From Myxococcales bacterium (GTDB taxonomy: Bacteria; Myxococcota_A; Polyangia; Polyangiales; Polyangiaceae): a stretch of DNA of 34,930 nt. The position numbers and the translations under genes are program-made. The stretch's first letter is position 1, and every line of letters begins with the position of its first letter. The notes under the pieces were generated by a model. The model ran no database searches. It saw only the letters and a program-made list of their open reading frames with translations, and was not told where the DNA came from. Below, one piece after another: positions 7,238 through 29,273 of this stretch. Location: the NCBI GenBank assembly GCA_023248815.1, contig JAHFDV010000010.1, positions 1 through 34,930 of the forward strand, given 5' to 3'.

Positions 7238-7309
<72 letters not shown>

Positions 7310-27540: not shown

Positions 27541-28044
27541 GTGGACGATAAAAAGGCACGCATCGCCGAGAAGAGGCGATTGATCGACGCCATTCGTGAA
27601 GCTCTCACGACCGAACGCGTCGAGAGCGCACGGCTCGCGAAAGATGCGGCCAACGCAGCGACGCACGAAGAAGCGCGCTCCGAGGGCGACAAGGACACGC
27701 GCGCGACCGAGGCCTCTTACATTGCGCGAGGCCAAGCAGAACGCGTCCACGTGATCGATCAAACGCTGCTGCAGCTCGGCGGTCTCGAGTGTCGCGCTTT
27801 TGGATCCGAAGATCGTATCGCCATCACTGCCGTCATCGATGTCGAGCAAGAGCCGAAGACTGCGCGCTACTTCCTTCTCCCCTCGGGCGGCGGGATGAAG
27901 CTCACGTTCGAAGGGGAACCCATCACGACGCTCGCCACGTCGAGTCCCCTCGGCAGAGCGCTCATCGGTCTAACGGAAGGCGAAGAAGCCGAGGTGCAAT
28001 CCCCGCAAGGTCTCAAGATTCACGCAATCTTGAAGGTGCGCTGA
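27541..28044 (+). CDS. GreA/GreB-family elongation factor-like protein
   Basis: Coiled-coil N-terminus (KKARIAEKRRLIDAIREALTTE...) and C-terminal YFLLPSGGGMKL...ITTLATSSPLGRALIGLTEGEEAEVQSPQGLKIHAILKV, matching the Gre C-terminal SPLGRALxGxxxGxxV pattern. Confidence 0.82.
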   Translation: MDDKKARIAEKRRLIDAIREALTTERVESARLAKDAANAATHEEARSEGDKDTRATEASYIARGQAERVHVIDQTLLQLGGLECRAFGSEDRIAITAVIDVEQEPKTARYFLLPSGGGMKLTFEGEPITTLATSSPLGRALIGLTEGEEAEVQSPQGLKIHAILKVR

Positions 28045-28060
28045 GCGCGGCCCGCCTCCT

Positions 28061-28387
28061 GCGTCCCGTTATGGGTTGAAAACGTCGCCGACCCGGCGAA
28101 CGAAGGTTCCCAAGAAAATATGCTTCTCTCGGGGACGGAGCTCTACCCGATGAGCCGGACCATCCGACCCCTCGCCCCCCACCGCGAACGATGTTCGCTC
28201 AAGACATAGAGGGGGTCGGCATGCGTCCCGTTATGGGTTGAAAACGTCCCCGGCCTGGCGAACGAAAGTTCGCCCAAGGACATATGAATCTCTTTGGGGA
28301 CAGGCTTTTGCCCATCGGGCGGGACCATCCGACCCTCGCCCCGTCGGGGGGTCGGCATGCGTCCCGTTATGGGTTGAAAACGTCCCC
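28061..28387. repeat. Short tandem repeat array: two full units (162 and 136 bp) plus a third partial copy
   Basis: GCGTCCCGTTATGGGTTGAAAACGTC starts at 28061, 28223 and 28359; the 41-nt GGGGGTCGGCATGCGTCCCGTTATGGGTTGAAAACGTCCCC is identical at 28211-28251 and 28347-28387. Bodies are alignable but diverged. Confidence 0.93.
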
Positions 28388-29254
28388 TGATTCCGTCGGC
28401 TTGGGCTTCGGCTTTGGCTTCTCCGTCGCAGGCTTCGGATCAGACGATGATGTCGAAGTGGCCGCGGGCTTCGGCTTTGGCTTCGGCGGATCGGCTTTGG
28501 GCGTGTCCGACTTCGGCGTGCCCGTGTCGTCGCCTTTCGGACGATCCATCTTTTTGGGGCGACGAGCATCGCGGCGATCGACGTCGCCCTTTACCGCGCG
28601 CTGGAGATCGAACACGAAGTCTTCGGCTTCGCGCGCGGAGAGCTGTGCGCGCTTGCCGAACGAACCGAGGATTTCGAGCGACGCACGGAGCTCGTTGCGG
28701 ACGTCCGTGGGAACGCGTCCGCCTTCTTTGGCGAAGTCTTCGCGGATATGCGGCTCGAGCTCGCTCCCCGAGTGCGCGAGCTCGTCGGCGTGCGTCGGCA
28801 CTTGTTTCAACGTTTTCGCGCGAAGGAGCTCCGAGTGCGCGCAGCGCTCGATTGCGCGGAAGAGCGTGCGAGCCGGCTCGGTCGCCTTGCCAGGGTAGGC
28901 GGCGACGAGGCTCACGTTTTCTCCGAGGACGTCGAGACGCGTCGCTCCCACTTCTTTGTGGTTGAGCATCTGCTCGTACGTCATCTGAATGAGCGTCACG
29001 TCCGCGGCGTCCGAAGGAACCTTCAACGCTTCACCGAGCGACTTGCACGAAGCGCGACGCTCGTCGTTCCACGTGCCGGCCGAGGTCTGGAGCTCGTGAA
29101 CCTGACGAAAGTAGGCGTCGTAGCGGGCGTTGCCCGTCTCGAATAGCTCGCCGTTCTTCACGTGCGCCTTACTCGAGAAAAGACTGCACCCCGAGAGGGC
29201 GAGGGAGGCGCCGAGAACCGTGGCGAGTAGGAACTGCCGTGAGAACGATGGCAT
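28367..29254 (-). CDS. Hypothetical lipoprotein with Pro/Lys-rich C-terminal tail
   Basis: MPSFSRQFLLATVLGASLALSGCSLF lipobox LSGC; tail KADPPKPKPKPAATSTSSSDPKPATEKPKPKPKPTESGDVFNP. ORF extends to 29269. Confidence 0.8.
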   Translation of the reverse strand: MPSFSRQFLLATVLGASLALSGCSLFSSKAHVKNGELFETGNARYDAYFRQVHELQTSAGTWNDERRASCKSLGEALKVPSDAADVTLIQMTYEQMLNHKEVGATRLDVLGENVSLVAAYPGKATEPARTLFRAIERCAHSELLRAKTLKQVPTHADELAHSGSELEPHIREDFAKEGGRVPTDVRNELRASLEILGSFGKRAQLSAREAEDFVFDLQRAVKGDVDRRDARRPKKMDRPKGDDTGTPKSDTPKADPPKPKPKPAATSTSSSDPKPATEKPKPKPKPTESGDVFNP

Positions 29255-29273
29255 CGAACGAAGGAGCATACCG

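Follow-up and report, generated by a model that had tools for sequence, protein, structure and literature searches.

Bacterial MITEs include those of the IS630 type, with duplication of TA within CTAG. REP, BIME and REPIN sequences, which go with RAYT transposases, are multicopy, non-autonomous palindromes located mostly downstream of genes or between convergent genes (PMC3733652), and attC sites are bounded by conserved R boxes (PMC2727003). Template switching in quasipalindromes lets one arm copy the other (PMC7202029, PMC8604942), and coding palindromes, in which long inverted repeats involve functional coding sequence, occur in the mitochondria of Nematomorpha (PMC6649704).

Here we describe a repeat in a 34,930-nucleotide stretch of DNA from a Myxococcales bacterium (the whole stretch is called the window), which belongs to a 6.2-Mb MAG of 764 contigs and 84% completeness (G000). 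With middling confidence, we read the repeat as a tandem pair of units from a family of mobile elements that is multicopy and non-autonomous and, in G000, anchored to gene ends.

Layout of the repeat in the window

The first-pass annotation had described a tandem repeat at 28061–28358 whose units, A and B, share a head and a tail and retain their hairpins, and our own reading of the sequence found all of these in place (Table 1). Its account of two head copies was sound but incomplete, as a third copy covers the last codons and stop of a minus-strand gene (protein end GDVFNP*, stop at 28367–28369). The identity of the head and 3' arm with the 3' end of this host gene had been overlooked, as had the fact that the element contains the gene end in inverted form and keeps a fixed polarity to genes. 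The unit bodies do differ, as had been reported, but not by mere drift: the middle of both units matches, imperfectly, the head read as its reverse complement (in unit B, GGGGACAGGCTTTTGCCCATCGGGCGGGACCATCCGACCC compared with GGGGACGTTTTCAACCCATAACGGGACGCATGCCGACCC, the reverse complement of head plus tail). On the plus strand, the order runs from a gene-end copy (T) through a small hairpin (H1), a linker, a 5' arm that is an inverted T and a long hairpin (H2) to a further T.

The extra hairpin reported for unit A was also present and is, more exactly, an H1-plus-linker-like segment within the apex of H2 (28180–28210), which suggests a nested insertion or a duplication of H1. A plain Rho-independent terminator is not supported, nor is the simple intrinsic form of the bidirectional terminator that had been offered as an alternative: there is no T-run structure at the element, and terminator-like patterns occur only within the neighbouring gene.

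Table 1 Features of the repeat and its neighbouring genes in the window
Feature	Position	Strand	Basis or remark
Convergent neighbour, 167 aa, putatively transcription-factor GreA/GreB-like (by eye)	27541–28044	+	ORF list
Outer (left) copy of gene-end repeat T	28060–28089	+	Directly left of unit A; 29/30 identical to 28358–28387
H1 hairpin, unit A (GGCGAAC-GAAG-GTTCCCA), imperfect	28095–28112	+	Sequence; model match 28090–28236, 34.2 bits
5' arm, unit A, imperfect inverted gene-end copy	28121–28163	+	Fold; arm/T scores
H2 hairpin, unit A, with H1-plus-linker-like insert in apex (GCGAACGATGTTCGCTCAAGACATAG)	28164–28219	+	Sequence, fold
Middle copy of T, the 3' arm of unit A	28222–28251	+	Identical to 28358–28387
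H1 hairpin, unit B (GGCGAAC-GAAA-GTTCGCC)	28257–28274	+	Model match 28252–28374; H1 covariation in family
A-rich linker, unit B (CAAGGACAT; family form AANCAACA)	28275–28283	+	Conserved columns
5' arm, unit B, imperfect inverted copy of host-gene end	28284–28328	+	Pairing rank, alignment
H2 hairpin, unit B, with family apex CCCTCGCCCCGTCGGGG	28329–28355	+	Conserved apex, covariation
Gene-proximal copy of T, the 3' arm of unit B	28358–28387	+	Holds stop and last codons of minus-strand gene
Host gene, predicted lipoprotein-like, 300 aa, ending ...TESGDVFNP; 3' end in T	28367–29269	−	ORF list

A family of folded units in the genome and its relatives

In a nucleotide search of G000, many contigs gave short matches, frequently at intervals of 110–190 nt, and the loci read around those matches shared a common anatomy with differing stem sequences. 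Each unit is about 115–190 nt long and is composed of H1, an A-rich linker, the 5' arm and H2 with its conserved apex, which is 75–88 nt away from H1 in 22 of 23 units and 101 nt away in the remaining one. Nucleotide search alone recovers mostly units with the GGCGAAC hairpin and gives noise in relatives. A covariance model (R1) was built from 18 units found by sequence similarity; its E-values are rough, and it gave 131 matches at E ≤ 1 in G000, an approximate count with 150 of 2,494 candidates scored. Both window units were matched, unit A as listed in Table 1 and unit B with 51 bits (E 4.2e-12, on the same rough scale). The loci that were read contained 71 arrays with 102 units altogether: 44 arrays have one unit, 23 have two and 4 have three.

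Covariation is strong across these units. In a MAFFT alignment of the 18 units, with H1 and H2 as the structure, 94 cells displayed two-sided changes versus 38.8 ± 4.9 after shuffling, and the covariation score was 0.437 versus 0.173 ± 0.019 after shuffling and at most 0.19 when the partner was slid by one base. Among 111 model-aligned matches, 90% of cells pair and covariation reached 0.598 (0.150 ± 0.007 shuffled, at most 0.09 slid), although this alignment was fitted to the structure and the MAFFT test is the cleaner of the two. The arms hold almost no shared sequence information yet covary strongly, and conservation of unpaired bases is limited to CCC before H1, the H1 loop, AANCAA in the linker, CANA in the 5' arm and the apex CCYTCGCCCCGTCGRGG. 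An early view of H1 as the sequence-conserved part was dropped as an artefact of BLAST bias, since H1 stems covary too. The first-pass suggestion of a palindromic dispersed element with retained pairing holds up: further copies exist in this genome and in those of relatives, and covariation is far above the shuffled and slid controls. A mere local tandem duplication with chance hairpins, which two similar tandem units between convergent genes might bring to mind, has next to no probability left: it is refuted by more than 100 structural relatives in the genome and more in other genera, and the 131 genome-wide model matches rule out the outcome of a local duplication that the annotation had allowed for.

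Of 69 H1 loops, 39 fit G-N-A-(C/G/T), ten are G-N-A triloops and ten fit G-N-N-A. Such loops are unusually stable as DNA, and the G-N-A-(C/G/T) class is not known as a stable RNA loop type; the H1 loops look more like stable DNA loops. In three loci, H1 or H1 with a short stretch is tandemly amplified beside a full unit (L044, G000:C145, with a repeat period of 39 nt; L060, G000:C674; L170, G000:C636), as if H1 were perhaps able to duplicate alone.

Comparison with Rfam 15 gave nothing above the gathering score in eight element loci, and the sole gathering-level match of the window was a tRNA gene (7238–7309), which lends no support to a known structured RNA as an explanation. The phage and plasmid collections contained no match to the element, and 22 single, scattered matches from an exact scan of GTDB contigs for the apex were read as chance. 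We found no description of such a family in the open-access literature searched.

Across 184 genomes of the same order, the distribution was patchy, with clear families in only a few genera of the same bacterial family. One genome (G040) carries a homogeneous dispersed repeat of ~143 bp (40 scored copies, 91–98% identity) with inverted ends CTAGTGC/GCACTAG and mostly CTA/TAG flanks. A second genome (G175) has 14 full or nearly full copies with 84–100% identity and ends CTAGTCCC/GGGACTAG; in a flank tally, nearly all of them have TAG as right flank and either CTA or CCA as left flank, whereas the left-flank part of that tally is unreliable for G040 because H1 is palindromic. In these relatives, the 3' arm is part of the element. 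We call the family mobile mainly because relatives carry this homogeneous dispersed form; in G000 copies, the arms are too diverged to reveal recent movement between loci, and no empty site was seen, which leaves insertion itself a proposal. A different repeat of ~30 bp was matched by the same query positions in about 15 contigs of another genome (G026), several times at contig ends, and represents an unrelated family.

We also searched for a mobilising enzyme. A Y1 transposase (PF01797) and a reverse transcriptase were both absent from the assembled 84% of G000; G040 has a Y1 HUH transposase and a reverse transcriptase, with no element beside those that were read. DDE_3 (IS630-type) genes are present in G000, with no element beside them. 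Tyrosine recombinases are present as well. At copies in G175 that retain only the left or the right end, no autonomous partner was recognised by ORF reading and a domain scan of one ORF pair in these incomplete genomes. Beside one left-end-only copy, a phage-integrase ORF (PF00589; L294 2652–3938, G175:C216) ends ~50 bp away, which we record as a lead only. Overall, we could link the element to no transposase, recombinase or autonomous parent in the incomplete genomes searched.

Fixed polarity to gene ends and copies of the gene end

Elements are placed with a fixed polarity to genes. With genes called as high-GC3 antisense ORFs of at least 80 codons, by ORF length and GC3 only, an antisense stop codon was located within 20 nt of the right end of the element in 52 of 68 arrays, as compared to 0–5 at nine shifted positions, and the left end gave 3 of 71. 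In these 52 arrays, part of the 3' arm coincides with the native end of the neighbouring antisense gene, stop codon included, and TGA, TAA and TAG are all used as stop codons. Three further arrays adjoin the 3' ends of tRNAs by eye (L052, L180 and L199). At one convergent gene pair (L175, G000:C259), both gene ends have an element of their own, and the two elements are oppositely oriented and back to back. Judged by alignment, the anchored gene ends are native: that of DNA polymerase I aligns through the last residue of E. coli Klenow, and alignments of a GlcD-like (glycolate-oxidase-like) protein and an enoyl-CoA hydratase reach within one residue of the end.

A folded single-stranded recombination site resembling attC, with a tyrosine recombinase reading the structure and gene ends serving as cassettes or targets, would account for this gene-end position as well as for tandem arrays, DNA-like loops and variable stems in which one arm has unpaired bases that are conserved, and tyrosine recombinases are at hand. 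We nevertheless consider such a site improbable, given that R boxes are absent and columns at the base of the long hairpin are nearly information-free, that no cassettes lie between units and that the hosts include several housekeeping genes.

The 5' arm copies the gene end imperfectly and in inverted form, with additional bases breaking up the copy, among them the conserved motif, as at the DnaA-like and enoyl-CoA hydratase ends; in L041, the arm and the gene end share 17 identical bases. Compared with the inverted right flank of its own locus, the arm scored in the top 5% of cross-locus scores in 52 of 68 cases and ranked first in 39. Based on coding bases alone, arms ranked first for the last ten codons of their own gene in 10 of 57 loci and in the top 5% in 14, as compared to none and two, respectively, for deeper codons. 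The unit B arm of the window was among those ranking first of the 57 for pairing with the last codons of its own gene, and arm pairing can extend about ten codons into coding sequence. Because several such protein ends are native, the arm follows the gene and not the reverse. Bulges are conserved within the otherwise copied arm, which argues that the fold itself is under selection and is hard to reconcile with simple copying.

In a sizeable minority of loci, the left and right flanks are related as direct copies: 25 of 68 reached the top 5% among cross-locus scores and 20 ranked first, and the inverted relation is weak (9 of 68, one first). In G000, the flanking direct copies span 20–50 nt, with no inverted ends. 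Some of the longest left copies contain part of the H2 apex and are therefore remnants of an earlier unit. At 540–575 of L057 (G000:C397), a remnant has seemingly lost H2, and part of its 5' arm is joined to the gene-end copy.

Within arrays, the H1-linker segment, arm, H2 stem and apex are kept between units (medians, 0.94–1.0), and it is the gene-end copy between them that drifts (0.68; Wilcoxon p = 2e-4). The arm of the distal unit is closer to the true gene end than to its own adjacent copy in 18 of 26 multi-unit arrays. In the other eight, including the window with nearly equal scores, units are closer to their own adjacent gene-end copy, which fits upkeep of a local hairpin without mobility. 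Both the 18 arrays and the contrast between kept parts and decaying copy would suit a guide-RNA array, TIGR- or CRISPR-like, with the 5' arm guiding to the gene end. That reading seems highly improbable: no Nop-domain (TIGR Tas) protein was found in 11 genomes (PF01798, 0/11), for which reason a TIGR array was rejected, Rfam gave no match, the arms match the adjoining host gene rather than foreign DNA, and the arm has mRNA sense when read 5' to 3' from H1. Because the arrays are mixed, we do not commit to a guide function.

The main rival to a mobile element is a pure RNA role at gene ends, which we regard as unlikely on balance. The element would act in cis as a very long hairpin at the mRNA end, with the stop codon in its stem, blocking 3'–5' exonucleases or convergent read-through, and its arms would co-evolve by selection for pairing. 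The fixed polarity with the long hairpin toward the gene end agrees with such a role, as do the strong covariation and the internal units of L184, L186 and L189, which still pair with their own diverged 3' arms. Less easily accommodated are the lack of a T-run, the reach of pairing into coding sequence and the presence of the element at only some 70–90 gene ends in a 6-Mb genome. A simple hairpin, moreover, has no need for a conserved H1, linker, CANA or apex, the H1 loops are mostly GNAB and not GNRA, and the same fold is a dispersed, homogeneous repeat in related genera.

A proposed mechanism and comparison with known systems

If the family is a mobile element of about 120–190 bp, its folded unit would consist of H1, an A-rich linker left single-stranded and a long hairpin with bulges, which in G000 would form when the 5' arm of the element pairs with the native 3' end of the adjoining gene. 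The element may be moved or copied by a recombinase or transposase that works on its folded single strand, and base pairing between arm and gene end may place or stabilise it there. The arm would be made from the gene end, or corrected against it, by template-switch synthesis; candidate causes of the match are selection for pairing, template-switch correction of quasipalindromes and guided placement. The direct gene-end repeats could then recombine or slip against one another and so produce tandem arrays. We tentatively propose, as a possibility short of our main reading, a class of mobile element whose recombination structure is in one half supplied by the gene end where it lands, with an internal arm templated on, or serving as a guide for, the last codons, so that each copy is matched to its site and the gene stays intact.

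Should the arm prove to be a guide or templated copy, we would be dealing with a DNA element able to adapt to its target with genes left intact, with a possible bearing on the unsolved origin of structure-recognised sites attached to gene ends, such as attC. Even as an RNA structure at gene ends, it would comprise more than 100 copies with locus-specific, coding-matched arms, undescribed in the open-access sources searched, and would have consequences for how gene ends are annotated in this bacterial family.

In the open-access literature, we know of no repeat family described as carrying an inverted, rough copy of the last bases of its host gene. Like REPs, the element is multicopy, palindromic, non-autonomous and placed at gene ends or between convergent genes. 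However, REPs are 20–40 bp long and sequence-conserved with a GTAG or CGTC tag, whereas the element spans 115–190 bp, has locus-specific gene-end copies as arms and CCC at the foot of H1, and lacks either tag; no Y1 (RAYT) transposase was found in G000, which is 84% complete. The copies in G040 and G175 resemble MITEs in being homogeneous and ~140 bp long with inverted ends and mostly CTA/TAG flanks, but the element has an elaborate conserved internal fold, and in G000 its right end is the end of a host gene and its flanking repeats are 20–50 nt. The palindromes of Nematomorpha are perfect repeats inside the genes of an animal organelle, and the abstract of that source describes no conserved element parts (PMC6649704). 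Template switching in quasipalindromes could explain why the arm tracks the gene end, but such correction leaves H1, the conserved bulges, the apex and the gene-end placement unexplained. From attC sites, the element differs in having no R'/R'' boxes (GTT/AAC), a long hairpin whose base lacks any conserved heptamer, an extra H1 and no cassettes, but it shares with them a structure that is kept with arms left free, unpaired bases on one arm and a position at stop codons.
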